In this document: in pieces, positions 15,425 through 25,083 of the stretch
Numbering within the stretch: position 1 is the first letter of the stretch
Layout of the letters: every line of letters begins with the position of its first letter
Source of the DNA: Cylindrospermum stagnale PCC 7417
Lineage (GTDB): Bacteria; Cyanobacteriota; Cyanobacteriia; Cyanobacteriales; Nostocaceae
NCBI RefSeq assembly: GCF_000317535.1
Contig: NC_019757.1
Span: forward strand, 3,550,501 to 3,614,500
Direction: 5' to 3'
DNA: 64,000 nt
Made by a program: the position numbers and the translations under genes
The notes under the pieces: model-generated
Seen by the model: the letters and a program-made list of their open reading frames with translations, nothing else
Database searches by the model: none
Told to the model about the DNA's origin: nothing

Positions 15425-16012
15425 ATGCAAGCCGCTACAACCACTTTACCTCCCACCCTGAAATTAAAAATCAACTTGACAGACGAGCAATATTTTCAAC
15501 TTTGTCAGAACAACCGCGACTTGAGATTTGAACGCACAGCCTCAGGAGAACTACTAATTATGTCACCAACCGGCAGCGATACTGGTAATCGTAACTTTGA
15601 TATCGCTGTTGAAGTAGGAATTTGGAATAAACAAACTAAATTAGGTAAAGGTTTCGACTCTTCCACCGGCTTTAAACTTCCCAATGGTACAGAATGCTCT
15701 CCTGATGTTGCTTGGATTAAAAAAGAGAGATGGGATAGTTTAACTCCAGAACAACAAAGTAAATTTGCACCTATTGCACCTGATTTTGTGATTGAATTGC
15801 GTTTTCCTAGCGATAACTTAAAACCATTGCAAAAGAGAATGCAAGAATATATCGAGAATGGAGTTAAATTAGCTTGGCTGATAGATAGAAAAAATAAGCG
15901 TGTAGAAATTTATCGTCCTCAGCAAGATGTCGAAATTTTGAAAAATCCTACTAGCCTTTCTGGTGAAAATATTCTACCAGGCTTTATCTTAGATTTGACA
16001 GATATTTTATAA
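15425..16012 (+). CDS. Uma2-family (DUF820) putative endonuclease
   Basis: The 195-residue product is a full-length member of the Uma2 family, which has a PD-(D/E)XK nuclease fold. Visible motifs are DLRFERTASGELLIMSPTG near the start, ECSPDVAWI (the PD of the active site), APDFVIELRFPSD (the E strand) and LAWLIDRKNKRVEIYRP. The position expected for the catalytic Lys/Ser after E-L is Arg, as in many family members. It starts at ATG 15425. Its role is unknown; such genes cluster with mobile and defence loci. It sits between two nuclease scars and the large leftward accessory cluster, and is convergent with it. A hairpin lies 135 bp downstream. Confidence 0.9.
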   Translation: MQAATTTLPPTLKLKINLTDEQYFQLCQNNRDLRFERTASGELLIMSPTGSDTGNRNFDIAVEVGIWNKQTKLGKGFDSSTGFKLPNGTECSPDVAWIKKERWDSLTPEQQSKFAPIAPDFVIELRFPSDNLKPLQKRMQEYIENGVKLAWLIDRKNKRVEIYRPQQDVEILKNPTSLSGENILPGFILDLTDIL

Positions 16013-16199: not shown

Positions 16200-18128
16200 C
16201 TACCGATGAGGATAAACATGACGCATTTCAAAGCGGCTTAATTCCCAAAGTGGTAACAAAGCCTGTTTAGCAGCATTAATCTGAGATTGAGAAAAAGAAA
16301 TTTTTCCATGTTCTATCATCCATATAAATGTTCGAGTGATTAAATCTGCTTGCAAACTCTTTTCATACTCACAATTATTTATCCTCACAACTTGTGCATC
16401 TAAACAATTAAGAGCATCTTTAAAAGTCCAACCCAGCGAATTACTATTAATTTCCTCTGGTGAATTTCTCCACTCAACACCGCGTAAATTTCCCATAATA
16501 TAATCCATACCCAAAATTGCTGAATCAGTATTCCGCACCAAATCTGTAAAAGCTTTATAATATGGACGCAATAGGGAAGCAGCAATATTTTCTTTATATA
16601 TATGCAGCCAAGATTGGATATCCCGCAAATAAGGGACTAAATCTCTAATATCATCAATTTCTTTAATAGAGGCACGCTCATATTGATAAATGCTAATTTT
16701 TGATAGCCATTCAGCTTCAGATAATTGTGAATGCTGAGAGTAATAGTTAATAACTTTGGGAATATATTTTTCTAATAACCATTGTTTAGTGTATCTAGCT
16801 GTCCAAGTTCCCCGTGGGCCGATATCTTGTTGCCATGAAGTTACTTTTCCTCGCTCCAAAGATTGTAAATGTACATCATTTAATTCATAAATTATATTAA
16901 TTTGCTTATTAGGTGTTAAAGAAAAATTAACCCCATATTTAGGCAAGATAAAAGCATGATCACGAATACCACGACTTACACGAATTGAAATATCTCCTTG
17001 ATGAAAAATATGCCATTCTGATTTACCTTGAGCATAATCGAATTCATTAGCAAACTTTTGCATTAACTCCCACAAACTTTGCTCAACAGAAAACAGATAA
17101 AAACCTCGAATACCCATAAATTCTATAAATTCAAAATTCCATGTTTCCAGAGCATTTTCAAATTCAATAATTGTCTTTTGGTATTCTTGGCAAACTGCAT
17201 CAATACAAAAACACAAGTCAACCGTTTCTAAATCTGATAAAATTACCGTAGTTTGCCCTAAATATACCTCGAAAGCATTCTTATCTAGTTGTCTAAGAAA
17301 AGAACGGCATCCCCAATCAGGTTTAGTGTTCATTCCTATCATAAATTTTCCCAAAATATATTGATGATTTAAGCTAATTTTTAGACCTCTTAAAATAACA
17401 CCACTAAACTCTATTACACAATCACCACCGACAAAAGCTTTGGGCAAATTACACTCTATTGCTATTTTAGGTTGAACGACAATTACACAGTTATTTTCTC
17501 TTGAATTGGCAGGCTGAAAATTACTTCTTTCTAAAATATTTTGTAAATGTGGATGATTTATAAAAGATTTTTCTATTAGTTTATATTTAGTATAAGTTAG
17601 AATATTGGTTGCATATTTATCGATACTTTTAACAAAACAAAAATTTAGTTTTTTATAAAACTCTGAGGCTATGTGAGGATTTTTTAGCGCATCTATATTA
17701 ATATCAATTACTAATTCTTCCCAATGGTAATGCAGTCGCTGAAAAACCTTTATATAATATCCATTGGTCACAATAAAAAATAATGGTTTTAAATGAACGC
17801 TATAAAATTTAGCTTGCTCAATTGCTTGGTCTAAATTCGTTTGTTGCAATTCTTCAACTTGAACAATAATGAGTGCTGTATCTGCATTTTGTTTCTCGAC
17901 ATCATTTGTAGAAAAATAAATATGAGCAATTTCTGACTTTATTACCTGGTTTCCCAAATTATGTATTTTCAAAGGGTATTGATCATGCCTACATTTATCT
18001 GGGTAGCCAAGATATTGAAACACAGGTAAAACAAACTTGTTTGCTACATCAGCTTCGTTTTGTAAAAGATGATGCTCAAAGGCTTGTAGCCAGGTGATAA
18101 ATTGTTGAATTGGCTCCATAATAGTCAT
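16200..18128 (-). CDS. Unfamiliar protein with degenerate HsdR-N-like (PD-(D/E)XK) domain
   Basis: I do not recognise this 642-residue protein as a whole. Residues 1-140 look like the N-terminal restriction-nuclease domain of type I HsdR: EADVANKFVLPVFQYLGY, then NADTALIIV (Asp83), then DQAIEQAKFYS and FFIVTNGYYIKVF, the usual Q-A-Y and TNG landmarks. The E-x-K pair expected after the third strand reads Q90-V-E92, so the nuclease site looks inactive. The rest (150-642) shows no motif I can name; it is mixed alpha/beta with a helical C-terminus. Start ATG 18128; a second ATG lies three codons later. It is co-directional with and 265 bp downstream of the helicase-like gene. AT-rich, unlike flanking core genes. 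A DNA-binding or sensing role is my inference. Confidence 0.75.
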   Translation of the reverse strand: MTIMEPIQQFITWLQAFEHHLLQNEADVANKFVLPVFQYLGYPDKCRHDQYPLKIHNLGNQVIKSEIAHIYFSTNDVEKQNADTALIIVQVEELQQTNLDQAIEQAKFYSVHLKPLFFIVTNGYYIKVFQRLHYHWEELVIDINIDALKNPHIASEFYKKLNFCFVKSIDKYATNILTYTKYKLIEKSFINHPHLQNILERSNFQPANSRENNCVIVVQPKIAIECNLPKAFVGGDCVIEFSGVILRGLKISLNHQYILGKFMIGMNTKPDWGCRSFLRQLDKNAFEVYLGQTTVILSDLETVDLCFCIDAVCQEYQKTIIEFENALETWNFEFIEFMGIRGFYLFSVEQSLWELMQKFANEFDYAQGKSEWHIFHQGDISIRVSRGIRDHAFILPKYGVNFSLTPNKQINIIYELNDVHLQSLERGKVTSWQQDIGPRGTWTARYTKQWLLEKYIPKVINYYSQHSQLSEAEWLSKISIYQYERASIKEIDDIRDLVPYLRDIQSWLHIYKENIAASLLRPYYKAFTDLVRNTDSAILGMDYIMGNLRGVEWRNSPEEINSNSLGWTFKDALNCLDAQVVRINNCEYEKSLQADLITRTFIWMIEHGKISFSQSQINAAKQALLPLWELSRFEMRHVYPHR

Positions 18129-18393
18129 TAGGTAATCTACTAGCTTGTATAAATTTGCCTTTCCCTATATTTTTCGTCTAAATTACAAATTTATCAAATT
18201 AGTTGAGATTTTATGGTGTTTGTGAATACTGCAATGGAGCTATTCTCCTCTAACTGAGTATGGTTGTGTCTGCATCTTACTAGCAAATTATATGCAAAGA
18301 GTATTTGCGAATTTCTACGCAGCTATTCACCACAAAGATTTACACCAGAAGCATCTGCTGAATATTCATCACTTCAATAAGCTGTTAGCTGTA

Positions 18394-21300
18394 CTAAGTT
18401 TCTTGAGAAAGAATCAAATTCAGTACATTTAACTCATGAGAATTTAAAAGATACTTATCTGTCAAAAGTTTTTGCCTAATTTCTTCTAGACTATAACTTC
18501 TAAAAACAACAAAAGGAAAATCTTTATAATTATGGCCAATAGGTAAAATATTACCTACAGGATACAACAAGCGAATATATGCAGCCAAAATATCCCGGAA
18601 GCGTTGGTCTTCTGGTTCTTCTGATTCATTGGCGAAATATTTACTCATCACCTCACCGCTAATAAATGCAAATAATGGTAAAGCGTAATATTGATCAGTG
18701 TGTTGACTACTCTGTTCCAGTCTTTGTGTTTTCTCCACCCCATCTCTTAACTTTTTCACCAATTCCATAGCATCTTTAATAGCAAACCGTAAACTTTCTG
18801 GATAAGAAGATTTGCGACGGATAATTTCGTGCATATTCTTCCACAGTTCTTCATTAGCATAGGTTGCTATATCAGCCAGTCGCATTTGGTAAGTTTCTTC
18901 TAAAGTATTGTTAGCAATAGGTACTATCAGCAAATTACCGCTAATGTACCCAGGTTCAATTTCACCCAAATCCAGTAACTTATCTAGAGTATGAGAAATT
19001 TGTAAAAACTTATTGTTAAAAGACTCCCGTAGTGCTAAATAATTAGACTCAGTTGCATTTTGAATAACAAAATCTGCTCGTCCTAGTAGCTTTTCTAAGT
19101 TTGTATAAACTTGTTTCAGCAACACATCGCTTTTAGTTTGTTGGTATTCTGTTTTTAATTGACGGATCAGGTTGACCATTTGAGCAGAGAATGTCTCACC
19201 AGCAGCAAAAACAGATTTTCCACCTATAGGAATAAGAATAAAATTATCCCGACCTATACGACCATAACCAAAAATTCTGGTCATGATAGAAGCTTTTAAA
19301 ATCAATAAGATATTTAACAGACTTAGCACACTTTCTTGTAAAGATATTTGTGGGTCATCTTGATAATAAACTGCTTGTTCTGCTAAGTAAAAAACTAGCT
19401 CTTTATCCTGATTATCTATATGCTCATTTCCCCGTCCTCGGTAAATTACCTGAATTACTTCCATCAGGTTTTTCTCGATTTCAAATTTGGGAATTTCTAC
19501 CAAAATATGTTTAGCTTTAGGAAAGGATAAACCCCGACTACCGGAAGCAGTCATAAAAATGACTTTGACATTTTCTTGATGTTTTTGAATTTCTTTCTTT
19601 TCTTCCTCAGAAATATTTGCGTGTATTTCTAAGTAATCTGTACACTTTTCAAATTTGCCCCGATGTCGCTTAATTTTATCAATTAGTTCTGCTAATTTAC
19701 GCTTGTTTTGAATATAAACTATTACCTGTTCAACATCTGACCGTTGTAAGAGAGATTCAATATCTTTTAAAATCTCGTTTTGTAACCCAGCTTCTAAGTT
19801 ATATTTTTGCTTTAATCCCGCTTCTTCGCTAAATTTACAAGACTCAACTAATACTTGATAACTAATAGATAAACTACTGGCTGGGTAGGAGTTAGTATTA
19901 ATAACAGTTGCTTGTAGACCTTTAAACGTTAATGGCTGAACAGAAAGAGGTTGAGCAGTATCTACAGCACGACGGAAATATATTTTATCTGGTTCTGGTG
20001 AAGTATCAGATAAGTGTTGAATAATCACATTTTTATCAACAATAGAAGCATCAGCAACAATTACTTTGGTATTAAAACCATGCTGAGAATCCATTAATTG
20101 ATACCTGTCTATTATCTGATGAATTCCATCTAAGAACTCCACACCTCCATCATCACCTGTGATTTTATCTATCATGATAAATAAGTGCTTAATTCTCCCA
20201 GATATTTCTTGCATTTTTTGAGGTAAAACTTGACCTTCCTTGGTGTTGTAAGCACTTCTAAAAATTTTATCAAAATGCTTTAATGTGTTACCAGTATCAG
20301 TCATTTTCAAGGCTTGAATAGAAGCAGTAGCTATAATATTATTTGATGTTTTTTGTTCTATAATTGTTGAGATAGCCTCGCAAATACTATTTAAAACACC
20401 CAGCTTCTTTTGTCCAATGTCTTGAATTACATCTTCCTTAGTTCGCTTAAGCCTGTCAGAACGTCGTGCTTTTTGTTCAACATCTCTACTATCCAGAAAG
20501 TCAACAGACTTTTCAGTAAATTTACCCTGACGCTGGTTAGAGGTATATTGAACTGTGTAACGTCCACAGTTATCTGTAATTAGGTTACTGTTGGTGTTGA
20601 TAGCTAATAATTTGTCACTACATAATTTTCTGGTATTTTTATCTTTAAATTTTTCGATTATATCCAGATTCACTTGTTTGCGAGGACTGACATAAAAGAA
20701 GAGAAAACCTTCATCTATATGTGCTTTCAAAAAATCGACAATTGCGGTAGTTTTACCAATTCCAGGATTTCCGGTCAAAAATATATAAGTCGATTGAGAA
20801 ACTAAAGTATTTTTAATTAATTCAGCATGAGCATCTCTTAATTTCATGGTTCCAGTTAATCCTAGCTCGTGCATCAATGCTGAAGGAACTAATCCCACGG
20901 AGTTGATAAATCCAGTAATTTTCTCTGTGTGACGAGGTAAAATGGTGATTTTATCCGCAGGAATTGCTAAAAGAGAATCAACAAACTCTTTACCGCGCTC
21001 AAAACTACGATATGCACTACGCTTAATTTGATTTAAAACTTGCTTACGTGCTTCGGGAATATCTTTGGGACTCGAATCATGTTTATAAATCTGATAACAG
21101 GTTTTCAAAATCTCTACATTTTCGCGTTGAATGGATATTGTGCTGATTCCGCGATCGCTATATCCTATGGAATTGAAGACTGCACCTGCTGTATCTGGGA
21201 GAATAGTGGTTTCTTGGAGAAATTCATAGAAGCTATGGAGATAGCAAGCAGCTTGAATTGACTTGGTACTTTCTTTATCTCTATATTTAAAAGCAGTAAA

Positions 21301-22011
21301 ATATGTCTTTAAACCTTCTGAGAATTCTAAACCTAAAGACTCAGTATCAATCCGAAGATTAGAAAAGACACTTTTTGAACGTAAGTAGCTAATATCTCTC
21401 ATTAATAAACGGCGGATAATTTCTATATAATCAATATTTTTTACATCTTCATTAGAGGTGATAGAAAACACTGATAAATCAACACAAATAACTCGATACT
21501 CTCTCCGATAACGTAATAAAATTAAAGTATCTGCATTGAGAAATTCACCTTTCTTCTTATAGCTTGCAATATATTGAGAAATGTTATCTAAGTTGTCAAA
21601 TTGAGATAATACTTCACTAAACCACTGGAAATCATTTTTATTGTCATAAGTACCAATACTGTTATCACCATTAAACCGACATTGATAATATAAGATTTCT
21701 ACATTTTGTAACTTGTATGGCTTATCCCAACCCGCAGATTTTATGTATTCTCGAAAGAAATTAAAGCCACTTAAAAAACCCTTTTGAATAAAAAATATAC
21801 TCCAAGTTTCAGCCATATCTCTTTCTAAACTGCTGATAACTTTATCAACAACTCGCTGTCGGATTTTAGGTAACTTTAGCTGCTGCAATTCCTGACGGTA
21901 TAAATCACCAAATCTCTGCTTAATTTTATTTTCTTCAATGTAAGCAAGAATACCAATATTAAAACCTACTTCAAACAAACGTCCCAAATCTTCAGCTATT
22001 TTGGATTTCAT
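18394..22011 (-). CDS. Large SF2-helicase-like ATPase of unknown system
   Basis: The 1205-residue soluble protein has a helical N-terminus with a possible degenerate nuclease-like strand pair (NADTLILL and YRVICVDLS, residues 159-180). A two-lobe helicase core follows: Walker A GNPGIGKTT (414-422), Walker B-like LFIMIDKIT (610-618), a third strand VIVADAS (650-656), motif IV-like QVIVYIQNKRKLAELI (762-777), motif V-like FMTASGSRGLSFPKA (819-833) and motif VI-like QVIYRGRG (854-861). The last ~330 residues are helical. Motif II reads D-K-x-T rather than DEAD/DEAH. The insertion between Walker A and B is unusually long (~190 residues). Start ATG 22011, 75 bp after the upstream gene ends. I know no named family; an ATP-driven nucleic-acid motor in a defence-type operon is the best reading. 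Confidence 0.8.
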   Translation of the reverse strand: MKSKIAEDLGRLFEVGFNIGILAYIEENKIKQRFGDLYRQELQQLKLPKIRQRVVDKVISSLERDMAETWSIFFIQKGFLSGFNFFREYIKSAGWDKPYKLQNVEILYYQCRFNGDNSIGTYDNKNDFQWFSEVLSQFDNLDNISQYIASYKKKGEFLNADTLILLRYRREYRVICVDLSVFSITSNEDVKNIDYIEIIRRLLMRDISYLRSKSVFSNLRIDTESLGLEFSEGLKTYFTAFKYRDKESTKSIQAACYLHSFYEFLQETTILPDTAGAVFNSIGYSDRGISTISIQRENVEILKTCYQIYKHDSSPKDIPEARKQVLNQIKRSAYRSFERGKEFVDSLLAIPADKITILPRHTEKITGFINSVGLVPSALMHELGLTGTMKLRDAHAELIKNTLVSQSTYIFLTGNPGIGKTTAIVDFLKAHIDEGFLFFYVSPRKQVNLDIIEKFKDKNTRKLCSDKLLAINTNSNLITDNCGRYTVQYTSNQRQGKFTEKSVDFLDSRDVEQKARRSDRLKRTKEDVIQDIGQKKLGVLNSICEAISTIIEQKTSNNIIATASIQALKMTDTGNTLKHFDKIFRSAYNTKEGQVLPQKMQEISGRIKHLFIMIDKITGDDGGVEFLDGIHQIIDRYQLMDSQHGFNTKVIVADASIVDKNVIIQHLSDTSPEPDKIYFRRAVDTAQPLSVQPLTFKGLQATVINTNSYPASSLSISYQVLVESCKFSEEAGLKQKYNLEAGLQNEILKDIESLLQRSDVEQVIVYIQNKRKLAELIDKIKRHRGKFEKCTDYLEIHANISEEEKKEIQKHQENVKVIFMTASGSRGLSFPKAKHILVEIPKFEIEKNLMEVIQVIYRGRGNEHIDNQDKELVFYLAEQAVYYQDDPQISLQESVLSLLNILLILKASIMTRIFGYGRIGRDNFILIPIGGKSVFAAGETFSAQMVNLIRQLKTEYQQTKSDVLLKQVYTNLEKLLGRADFVIQNATESNYLALRESFNNKFLQISHTLDKLLDLGEIEPGYISGNLLIVPIANNTLEETYQMRLADIATYANEELWKNMHEIIRRKSSYPESLRFAIKDAMELVKKLRDGVEKTQRLEQSSQHTDQYYALPLFAFISGEVMSKYFANESEEPEDQRFRDILAAYIRLLYPVGNILPIGHNYKDFPFVVFRSYSLEEIRQKLLTDKYLLNSHELNVLNLILSQET

Positions 22012-22086
22012 GCTGTTGAGTTTTCTAAATATATTTTTTTCAATTCTGACAAAAAGACTCTTTTTGGCTCTGCGTTAACCTCTGGA

Positions 22087-23691
22087 TCACTCTGCGTTTA
22101 ATATTGTTCTCACAAGAGTTAAAAATGCTAAAGAGTTAAATTCACCTCTTCCTCTTATGTGATTAAACAAAGAAAGCTTACCAACGGATTTATCTCCGAT
22201 CAGATTTTCGTAGGGATCTAGTTTGATATGAATTTTTTTGTCGGCTTTTTGGTAGCGCGAGAAATGAAATAAAGTCAAATACTGCAAGATATCATCTTTT
22301 AACGAACCATCAAAAATAAGTCCTTTGCGAATATCTTCATCATCGAGAATTCCTTGATAAATATTTAACAGTGTGGCATAAGAAATGACACCTCTGTAGT
22401 ATCTTTCTTCATCTTTACCAACTTTCATGCCATTAAATAAGTTGAAAAATAAAACTGATTTTTTGCTAGGATCTTCGAGTAAATTTGTCAGTTCTGTTGT
22501 GTCTTGAATGTATAAGGAACTTGCTTCGATATCCTCTAGTCTAACTGCATAGTATTTATCAAAAAACATCGGGTATATTTTGATATCATGATATTCAGAT
22601 TTTAATCCTTTAATTACATCTCTTGACATGAAGAAAAGCCCATCACCTTCTTCTGTTTGTGTCATGTGCAAGGTGCTGGTATAAGGTGCTTTAGCAATAT
22701 AGACAATGTGCTTATATCCCAAGTTGTAAAGTTCAGTCACTTTATCTATAATCACGCTGGGATTTGTAAACATTTGTTGATTGTTATAGTTGTCAGAAAA
22801 AGTTGTAGGTAACTGAAATTTAACCACCCCATTTTTCATGTTTACACCGATAATTTCTCCCATTAAGTTAGAGATTTTTGCAGAACTATTCCACTGACTA
22901 TCGCTTTCACGACTGGAGACAATAATAATGGCTAGTTTGTCTAATTGGGGAGATTTAGAGTAAGTATTAAAACTAAACTTTTTGGGTAAAACAGAGTATA
23001 AAGAACTCATCACATTAGGAATTTTATATGCCAAATCTCTAATATCTATTCCCTGTTGATTAGCACGATGTGTTTCATTGAATAAATGGGATAAAACAGC
23101 GGACAAAGAAACTATAAATTTTTCTATTGGTGCATCATCTTCTTTATTATTCAGATGTAATCTTAAAATTGGAATAAATAATCTTTTCTGCTTGTCTAAT
23201 AAGAGTTTGAGGCAGATATAAGCAAGCAAACCATAAGTAAATTTATAAACAAAAGCCTGATGAGGTTCTAGTTTTTTATCTTCTAGACGATAGGGAAATA
23301 ATAAAAGTTGGCGATTGTTGAAATGTTGATTGTAAATTTTAAAACATCTATGATCATTTAAAGGTGCAAAAATTACTGGTAATGCACGAATACTGGTTAA
23401 ATCATATTCCATGCTAAAGGTTTCTTGATCATCTGTAGCAAAAAAGTGAATGTCGTTGATAGTAACTTTAGCTGGTAGAGTGCAAAGAGAATTTGTTTCT
23501 GTATTCGGTTTTCCCAGAGATATGTATTTCAAAACTTCTTTGGGATTTCCTCTCACAACGGGTTTGAAAAATGTATTGTTATTAAAAATATTCTGAGTAT
23601 CTTCTTCAAGAATGCCGTTTTTTACAGAAATATGTACAGGATACTCTCTTGTAGGGAAGGAAGTTTTGCGCTTGAGGATATTTTGCAGCAC
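22087..23691 (-). CDS. C-terminal part of the interrupted accessory protein
   Basis: If translated on its own, this frame starts at GTG 23691 and gives 534 residues; no convincing ribosome-binding site precedes that codon and the frame is open 86 codons further upstream, so an independent start is doubtful. The second half has alternating strands and helices (LDKLAIIIVSS, YKHIVYIAKAPYTSTLH, KIYPMFFDKYYAVRLED, KSVLFFNLFNG), which suggests a Rossmann- or RNase-H-like fold. I considered a PIWI-type domain because of its fold pattern and the helicase and nuclease-like neighbours, as in PIWI-RE islands, but I see no PIWI-RE signature, so that is only a guess. Function unknown. Confidence 0.6.
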   Translation of the reverse strand: MLQNILKRKTSFPTREYPVHISVKNGILEEDTQNIFNNNTFFKPVVRGNPKEVLKYISLGKPNTETNSLCTLPAKVTINDIHFFATDDQETFSMEYDLTSIRALPVIFAPLNDHRCFKIYNQHFNNRQLLLFPYRLEDKKLEPHQAFVYKFTYGLLAYICLKLLLDKQKRLFIPILRLHLNNKEDDAPIEKFIVSLSAVLSHLFNETHRANQQGIDIRDLAYKIPNVMSSLYSVLPKKFSFNTYSKSPQLDKLAIIIVSSRESDSQWNSSAKISNLMGEIIGVNMKNGVVKFQLPTTFSDNYNNQQMFTNPSVIIDKVTELYNLGYKHIVYIAKAPYTSTLHMTQTEEGDGLFFMSRDVIKGLKSEYHDIKIYPMFFDKYYAVRLEDIEASSLYIQDTTELTNLLEDPSKKSVLFFNLFNGMKVGKDEERYYRGVISYATLLNIYQGILDDEDIRKGLIFDGSLKDDILQYLTLFHFSRYQKADKKIHIKLDPYENLIGDKSVGKLSLFNHIRGRGEFNSLAFLTLVRTILNAE

Positions 23692-23949
23692 ACCTTTGAG
23701 ACGATTGATTTTAAACTGAATATTAAATTCTTGTAAATATTTATAAATACTCCGAAGAAGTTGGTCTTTTGCTATTTCGTCAGAACCTTGTAGTTTCTTA
23801 ATTACTTTTTTATCAAAAGCTTCTACAGGATCATATTTTAATTCATCGTTTGGCTCGTAATTATCATTTTTAGGATTGAGAGAAGACGCAAATAAAAAGT
23901 AGTATAAAAACGCTATTTTTAAAACCTTTGCTGCAAATAATTCTCGTTG

Positions 23950-25083
23950 TTAAGGATCTGCAAGTGCATCTTTGTGTTCTTTACTATCTGGGTTAAGGAT
24001 ATTTAGACGAGAATCAAAAACGCTTTTACCACCGTCAGTATGAACTTTACCATCAAACTTCAATTTCAGTCCAAATACAAATTGAATTTCTCCCAGATTT
24101 TCATCTTTTGTTTCTCCCAAAGACCCCTCTACTATGGGAATAATTGGTAGCATATTAAATGCTTCACCACGAGAAAAAGCATCTTTGTAATTAACTGAAG
24201 CACCTGCATAGTTTACGAGGTAATCACCATCAGCTTTGTTGATATTGTTGATGTATTCTTCTATCAGTTTTAGTCTTCTAATTAAATCTTGTAAATATAT
24301 AGCACCTGCCGCATTCAGCTTGCTAGTATTGGTGTTAATATTTTCTAGCAGAAATTCTAAATAATTGATCTGTGCTTGTTTTTTTAGTTTCCCTAATGTT
24401 TGCTTGTTGACAACATCTCGCAAACGGAAAAGGTCAGAATTTTTATCTTTCTCTAAGTCTTCAAGAATGTATTCTAAGTCTTGTCTTTCTTCAGAATTTG
24501 TACCTGCAAATTTTACACGAATATAATTTTCTAAACCTTTTCGTAATTCTGCATCAAAATCATGTGTCTTCTGCACGGAAATAGTTAGTTTATGAACTTT
24601 TAGCAGTTCTCTGTTTTCAGGATTTTTTTTATTAAATGTTAACCGTTGCTTTTGCAGATTTTTATAAGAAAGAAAAGGATAGGTAAAGTCTAATTTAGGT
24701 GTTGTACCTTTAAAATTCTGTAAATCTGTAATTAGTTTGCTAACAAATTCCTCTATTGATTCACTATTTCCTAATGATGATTCTAATAATTTTTTGACAC
24801 AATCTCTAATAGTGCGAATTTGAGTCTGAAACTTTTTGTCAGAACCTGGACTAATATTTATAGTTGCAGAACGCACGCTGTTTGCAGATGAACCCAAGGG
24901 ATTCTCTACTTGCAAATCGGCAACTTCATTAGCTACCTGATCAATATTGATTCGTAACCGTTTGTTATCATCAGAAGTTTTAACTATTTCCTGATTTGGT
25001 TTCTGTAAAACTAATAAAATTTTCGCTAATAAATCAGTATAATCTACATATACTAAATCTTGTCCGTCGGTTATACTATTCAC
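23950..25083 (-). CDS. N-terminal part of the interrupted accessory protein
   Basis: This frame codes for 377 residues from GTG 25083 to the TAA at 23950. The product is soluble, lysine- and asparagine-rich, and mostly helical, with a long acidic/basic helical centre (EERQDLEYILEDLEKDKNSD). The beta-containing end (IQFVFGLKLKFDGKVHTDGG) runs into the stop without a natural-looking C-terminus. No known domain was recognised. As the first gene after purQ's far side it probably carries the operon promoter. If the TAA is real, this is a truncated product; a functional stand-alone protein is possible but less likely given the open frame beyond. Confidence 0.6.
   Translation of the reverse strand: MNSITDGQDLVYVDYTDLLAKILLVLQKPNQEIVKTSDDNKRLRINIDQVANEVADLQVENPLGSSANSVRSATINISPGSDKKFQTQIRTIRDCVKKLLESSLGNSESIEEFVSKLITDLQNFKGTTPKLDFTYPFLSYKNLQKQRLTFNKKNPENRELLKVHKLTISVQKTHDFDAELRKGLENYIRVKFAGTNSEERQDLEYILEDLEKDKNSDLFRLRDVVNKQTLGKLKKQAQINYLEFLLENINTNTSKLNAAGAIYLQDLIRRLKLIEEYINNINKADGDYLVNYAGASVNYKDAFSRGEAFNMLPIIPIVEGSLGETKDENLGEIQFVFGLKLKFDGKVHTDGGKSVFDSRLNILNPDSKEHKDALADP

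Follow-up and report, generated by a model that had tools for sequence, protein, structure and literature searches.

In DdmDE of Vibrio cholerae and Lactobacillus casei, a catalytically inactive long Argonaute-like protein acts with a superfamily 2 (SF2) helicase effector against plasmids (PMC12409362). ApsAB, described from Escherichia coli ST38 and relatives, is encoded by adjacent genes for an Argonaute-like protein and a helicase-nuclease and displays a QG in its MID-like region; its description (PMC11096173) further reports ApsAB-like systems in cyanobacteria and in beta- and gamma-proteobacteria, partners retrieved downstream of apsA, an ApsA of more than 1400 amino acids (aa) with a C-terminal nuclease that includes K1435 and, according to the authors, an RNase H fold that is not conserved in ApsB. 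pPIWI-RE (PMC3702460) places a PIWI protein of ~1000 aa beside an SF2 helicase of similar size, in the three-gene order restriction endonuclease (REase), DinG helicase, PIWI-RE. Here, we analyse a stretch of 64,000 nucleotides (nt) from Cylindrospermum stagnale PCC 7417 (contig NC_019757.1, positions 3,550,501 to 3,614,500; source genome of 7.61 Mb in 4 contigs), hereafter the window, which carries two adjacent genes, A and B, for a protein of predicted Argonaute fold and an SF2 helicase. We hold it moderately probable that A-B is a two-gene defence module, in which a guide-binding, probably non-cutting Argonaute is joined by a helicase effector in the manner of DdmDE, ApsAB, or PIWI-RE.

A and B form a real pair, far above chance. 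A directly precedes B, in the same orientation, in 92 of 101 distinct loci; the two are separated by a median of 3 nt, and in 54 of these 92 they overlap or are at most 10 nt apart. A is located elsewhere in the locus in five cases and was not found in four. These 101 loci, among which near-identical genomes may still count twice, remain from 125 after removal of 12 in which no B reaches 900 aa, seven exact duplicates, and five with less than 3.3 kb upstream. Under a stricter overlap rule with duplicates kept, raw adjacency amounts to 97 of 108. The order is thus kept and homologs are not scattered singly, as the original prediction of an anti-invader cluster had led one to expect. No third gene is conserved downstream of the pair, as clusters among the 212 genes found there comprise 9 loci at most. 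The family falls into two subfamilies, A/B of ~1000 and 1210 aa and A'/B' of ~1060 and 1300 aa, and kinship between A and A' is evident from profile comparison (hhalign probability 98, E 1e-14). Intact A orthologs are open and ~1000 aa long. Both subfamilies occur under one record title in Dolichospermum planctonicum NIES-80 (L080, L129) and Nostoc sp. S4 (L108, L131).

Judged from its predicted structure, A is Argonaute-like in fold and belongs to the wider PIWI/Argonaute superfamily. The AlphaFold model of an intact ortholog (L073; pLDDT 88, pTM 0.86) contains the MID domain and the PIWI (RNase H) fold that characterize this superfamily, and in a Foldseek search of the PDB its rows 1-27 are all Argonautes (one titled only as a complex), followed by a sharp break. 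No DdmE could be recognized among the matches listed, which excludes nothing. Sequence models do not recover this relationship. None of the models tested from Pfam, PADLOC, NCBIfam, and PHROG gives a convincing match to A: U_exon (E 0.036) and GAP1-M (E 0.2) in Pfam, PRK13654 (E 0.0021; 17.2 bits against a cut-off of 391), and phrog_2500 (E 0.011) all stay far below their cut-offs, where one is stated. Piwi (PF02171) matches neither the two A pieces of the window (to E 1), nor 26 A orthologs and seven A' proteins (to E 0.1), nor any protein of the window's genome, and searches of PDB sequences return a single unrelated entry (E 0.08) for the A profile and nothing for that of A'. RNaseH_pPIWI_RE (PF13032) is likewise absent from the window's genome and from the Pfam matches of A, and hhalign assigns A versus pPIWI-RE a probability of 0.2. 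We therefore reject PIWI-RE identity. The absence of a clear PIWI-RE signature, already remarked in the original prediction, is borne out by these family searches, yet the fold places A within the wider superfamily.

In the structure alignment of A and A' (48 of 59 listed proteins), the QG is invariant (48/48) and R645 is present in 43 of 48, while no Y-x3-K preceding the QG is conserved at 80%. Active prokaryotic Argonautes (pAgos) are recognized by a DEDX catalytic tetrad. As read from alignment columns rather than from a residue-level structural superposition, no Asp is conserved in at least 80% of the A/A' proteins in the middle of strand 1, with only D732 at the end of that strand (45/48), or within strand 4. 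Hence, A is probably non-cutting, as the usual catalytic aspartates of PIWI are not evident, and it probably binds a small nucleic-acid guide via the MID domain.

B is an SF2 helicase. Its Helicase_C match (35.1 bits, cut-off 23.5) agrees with the SF2-helicase-like ATPase proposed originally, and a PDB sequence search retrieves helicases, the best at E 0.0011, along with some weak matches. The best fold matches of the core are RNA helicases such as Brr2, Prp2, and eIF4A; SF2 cores are all alike, so that these rows say little, and the fold search, filled by helicase cores, says nothing on the N-terminal and C-terminal (~930-1205) parts. With regard to the housekeeping folds against which the original prediction had set its conflict system, A is unlike housekeeping enzymes, whereas the core of B best matches ordinary RNA helicases. 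The first 380 residues of B may form a variant PD-(D/E)XK nuclease, a candidate put forward from strand order and from the motif residues D161, an acidic residue at 178, K246, K250, Q253, and Y257. The only PADLOC match of B up to E 1 is mad8 (E 0.0014).

The pair is patchily distributed and carried on plasmids. B has matches in 53 of 386 cyanobacterial genomes, an even draw across the phylum. By record title, the 61 B rows divide into Cyanobacteriota (46), Pseudomonadota (8), Chloroflexota (3), Bacillota (2), Actinomycetota (1), and one unassigned; the single actinomycetotal row is a metagenome bin, as are some of the others. Additionally, B is found on 11 of 72,556 plasmid records, six of which are predicted to be conjugative. 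A-B is a conserved two-gene module with loci from several phyla and conjugative plasmids. A phage or prophage origin is unsupported: there is no B match among 50,697 phage records (0/50,697), and a pattern search of viral contigs gave 217 matches, of which none is a relative.

Known defence genes lie near A-B in three of the eight plasmid regions fetched. In Trichormus variabilis ATCC 29413, the plasmid-borne pair consists of AVA_RS29110 and AVA_RS29105. On plasmid C of T. variabilis, the pair is located ~8.5 kb upstream of a full match to the DrmD (DISARM) model, which is followed by a cytosine methyltransferase gene; on pNPM2 of Nostoc N6 it precedes an MkoA-MkoB (Mokosh) pair by ~5 kb, and on an Acinetobacter plasmid it stands just before a PDC-S37/Hhe gene. 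In the other five regions, the three proteins tested have no PADLOC match. For a broader survey, 123 proteins neighbouring 22 loci of cyanobacterial genomes, including draft contigs that may be chromosome or plasmid, were set against 115 proteins (of 132 selected) from 20 control regions of the same genomes, with at most six neighbours kept per locus, each of at least 180 aa. Among the PADLOC families shown (25 of 63 for neighbours, 25 of 36 for control), kinase models occur 3 versus 3 times and MkoA 2 versus 2. Type IIG, PDC-S17, HEC-01A, RTasPolA, and mad3 (2 each) and RT_UG35 and SngC (1 each) are seen beside A-B, compared to one each of type IIG, type I, TmtA, and DndA/SspA in the control, the last probably a housekeeping cysteine desulfurase.

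The window copy itself is probably inactive, to judge from its sequence, whereas relatives hold intact copies, among them a chromosomal pair in Anabaena catenula FACHB-362. As originally noted, A is interrupted; a single in-frame TAA breaks its frame, and the second open frame starts 86 codons past the stop. Relative to four relatives, the ratio of nonsynonymous to synonymous substitution rates (dN/dS) is 0.18-0.23 before the stop and 0.12-0.20 after it, and 0.14-0.16 for B; the low values on both sides of the stop point to purifying selection on both halves of A until recently. Moreover, Lys616 of B replaces a Glu in the Walker B/DExx motif (motif II) that is invariant in the relatives aligned (42/42; 42 of 61 listed proteins). 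The stop in A and the non-conservative change in B together argue for an inactive copy.

On present evidence, A-B would work most like DdmDE, with an Argonaute that binds a guide but does not cut, and a helicase as the effector. A, as a long protein of the Argonaute superfamily, would use its MID domain to bind a small nucleic-acid guide and would recognize invading plasmid or phage nucleic acid, probably without cutting it; B, perhaps with an N-terminal nuclease, would be brought in by A, much as DdmD is by DdmE, to unwind the target and destroy it. Compared by description and not by sequence, DdmDE and A-B share two genes for a long Argonaute-like protein and an SF2 helicase, but the nuclease of DdmD is C-terminal, after the helicase, whereas ~380 residues precede the helicase in B. 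The originally proposed, possibly nucleic-acid-triggered conflict system of undescribed type gains support for A and B from their conserved order, plasmid carriage with known defence genes nearby in some cases, Argonaute fold, and helicase. Several observations weigh against this reading. The global TM-scores of A in Foldseek are low (0.17-0.27 by query length, ranks 1-27), so that the match to Argonautes is remote, and residues 1-146 of the model are barely covered. Profile comparison of A with pAgo (16 proteins: 14 from a search and two taken from loci, one of these already among the 14) or PIWI-RE yields no sequence link, but this test is blunt, as PIWI-RE versus pAgo likewise gives none. 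For residues 1-380 of B, Pfam and PDB offer only single-member matches or matches at E of at least 0.12, leaving the nuclease domain without family or structure support; the TnsA C-terminal model is touched by one of 22 N-terminal members (E 0.11). No clear excess of defence genes over control regions emerges among the families shown. Further, purQ was found in 13 of 41 mapped loci and adjoins A in 11 of them (Nostocaceae, often at one fixed site), as expected of a vertically kept gene. Lastly, ApsAB is active on plasmids and on none of eight phages tested (PMC11096173); should the analogy be valid, A-B would more likely be directed at plasmids.

How A-B relates to the described systems is a further matter. 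A real, though tentative, possibility is that it represents a separate, undescribed class of Argonaute-guided immunity spread over several phyla, in which a diverged Argonaute would be combined with a single-chain helicase carrying its own N-terminal variant PD-(D/E)XK nuclease. Such a class would in effect be a PIWI-RE with nuclease and helicase fused, and a further partnership beside PIWI-RE and DdmDE/ApsAB. pPIWI-RE, of which cyanobacterial examples were found, resembles A-B in combining a ~1000-aa protein with an SF2 helicase that is about as large, but its three-gene order contrasts with two genes in A-B, of which A is the first. Searches limited to the open-licence literature of PubMed Central (PMC) did not find the A-B family. 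We consider it unlikely that A-B is instead a distant branch of the published ApsAB/DdmDE assemblage, that is, an anti-plasmid Argonaute-like protein with an SF2 helicase-nuclease. The same two functions reside in two adjacent genes, the QG of the ApsB MID motif is the one invariant in A, and A-B occurs in the bacterial groups from which ApsAB-like systems were reported. Set against ApsAB by description and not by sequence, however, the gene order is reversed, since apsA lies upstream of apsB whereas the Argonaute-like gene comes first in A-B; the model of A has the RNase H fold that ApsB does not conserve; B, at only ~1200-1300 aa, contrasts with the longer ApsA and its C-terminal nuclease; and the full Y-x3-K..QG..K motif of ApsB is not conserved in A, where only the QG is. 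In PADLOC, moreover, no Ddm model matches A or B up to E 1, the Ddm content of this 2023 library being unchecked.

A function outside defence appears quite improbable, namely that A-B is a chromosomal maintenance or repair pair with A as a guide-free nucleic-acid scaffold and B as a helicase of replication or RNA metabolism. The fixed position next to purQ in a number of Nostocaceae, purifying selection on both genes, and the RNA helicases heading the fold matches of B would suit such a role, the last of these to little effect given the uniformity of SF2 cores. A maintenance pair is hard to reconcile with the lack of any B match in 333 of the 386 cyanobacterial genomes, with copies that are broken or rearranged in several of them, and with carriage on conjugative plasmids, in some cases near DISARM and Mokosh genes. 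It is very improbable that the window holds a working split system, in which the two open parts of A would be produced apart and then come together again. Neither part contains a stop, each has been constrained in the past, and split Argonautes exist, one of which (8ok9, the AfAgo and AfAgo-N complex) appears in the Foldseek list of A; but the 86 codons between the stop and the second frame would be lost, the two-frame A of L043/L116 and L081 breaks near residue 825 and thus sets no precedent, and the helicase partner bears the Lys at motif II. The guided two-gene defence module accordingly remains the reading that we prefer, for the intact copies rather than for that of the window.

In the window, A and B lie with a third gene, C, in an interval between genes that we take to be purQ and trpE, as they are named in the original prediction (Table 1). 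The AT-rich, co-directional block reported there is confirmed by 1-kb windows, in which the GC fraction is 0.30-0.35 from 16 to 25 kb, compared with 0.42-0.48 both at 12-15 kb and at 25-29 kb, with the AT-rich stretch setting in near 14.5 kb already, and by the minus-strand orientation of all three genes.

Table 1. Positions in the window of genes A, B, and C, their parts, and the Uma2 gene; MID-PIWI boundaries are transferred from the L073 ortholog and hence approximate.
Feature	Positions	Strand	Remarks
Gene A, Argonaute-fold protein, interrupted	22087-25083	-	998 codons; open frames 23950-25083 and 22087-23691
In-frame TAA, codon 378 of A	23950-23952	-	Intact copies in relatives
MID-PIWI part of A, approximate	22090-23178	-	~Model residues 640-1000; downstream of the stop; holds the invariant QG
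Gene B, SF2 helicase-like, 1205 aa, open	18394-22011	-	Helicase_C match; Lys at 616 in motif II
B residues 1-380, candidate variant PD-(D/E)XK-like domain	20872-22011	-	Motifs and strand order only
B helicase core, ~residues 381-930	19222-20871	-	Pfam match and fold search
Gene C, 642 aa, outside the A-B module	16200-18128	-	Genome distribution and locus comparison
Uma2 gene, 195 aa, open	15425-16012	+	Uma2 family match, E 1.1e-45

Gene C is separate from the A-B module. It has matches in 14 of the 386 cyanobacterial genomes, and only three (G000, G278, G376) also hold B; B of the same subfamily is found in 2 of the 14, while in G376 it belongs to the distant subfamily and lies on another contig than C. 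In 8 of 12 fetched C loci, including that of the congener G030, C directly adjoins purQ without A-B. In G278 (L067), C stands on the other side of A with a Uma2 gene between; this homolog is shorter and lacks the HsdR-like part, and its own scan is uninformative there. Given the small genome overlap and the presence of C next to purQ without A-B, we reject a three-gene unit that includes C. Of the three-gene cluster envisaged originally, the A-B pair therefore persists and C drops out, also from the proposed conflict system; the HsdR-N-like domain ascribed to C falls short as well, as its HSDR_N_2 match (19.9 bits) is below the Pfam cut-off of 25. The nuclease-gene scars reported on the trpE side give way, at the Uma2 position, to an open gene without a scar. 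Neither a methyltransferase nor a specificity subunit appears among the Pfam matches of the four genes scanned (A, B, C, and Uma2), in line with the original prediction for the cluster's own genes, and type I restriction-modification is rejected on this ground. C is often adjacent to purQ in Nostocaceae.

The most telling context for A-B is provided by the congener G030, which has no B match. There, the same interval comprises, in this order, C, a Uma2 gene, a gene for a nuclease matching PDDEXK (E 1.1e-10), one for a canonical pAgo with a Piwi domain (E 4.8e-15), and another Uma2 gene, and the pAgo operon (L160:10500-14216) occupies the place of A-B in the window. This canonical pAgo with its Cas4-like nuclease shares with A-B the Argonaute superfamily and the purQ-trpE interval, but the pAgo is ~760 aa long with a clear Piwi match, its PD-(D/E)XK nuclease is a separate gene, and no helicase gene lies between C and trpE. 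The order C, Uma2, nuclease, pAgo recurs in L171 (G338).

Individual loci display further arrangements. In L086:4966-14656 and L075:511-10213, the order is A-B-A, with a second, different A downstream of B and, in L075, a partial B after it. The Achromatium B' homolog (L144:4255-12014) has a gene for an AcrB-type transporter, not A, directly upstream. On plasmid C of T. variabilis (L172:15689-26458), an unusual block lies behind the pair, made up of two large proteins of 828 and 1853 aa that match TmtA in part, and of DrmD. In the Acinetobacter plasmid copies L174 and L175, A is enlarged to ~1190-1210 aa; toxin-antitoxin genes lie near the pair in L174, and HNH nuclease and WYL genes in L175.

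Searches for Argonautes commonly start from sequence models, and the fold family of A is one that the models tested here do not recognize. If it is guide-dependent, A-B widens the range of effector partners of Argonautes. The pair might help to explain plasmid barriers in filamentous cyanobacteria. Congeners that carry either a canonical pAgo or the diverged A in the same chromosomal interval offer a natural comparison.

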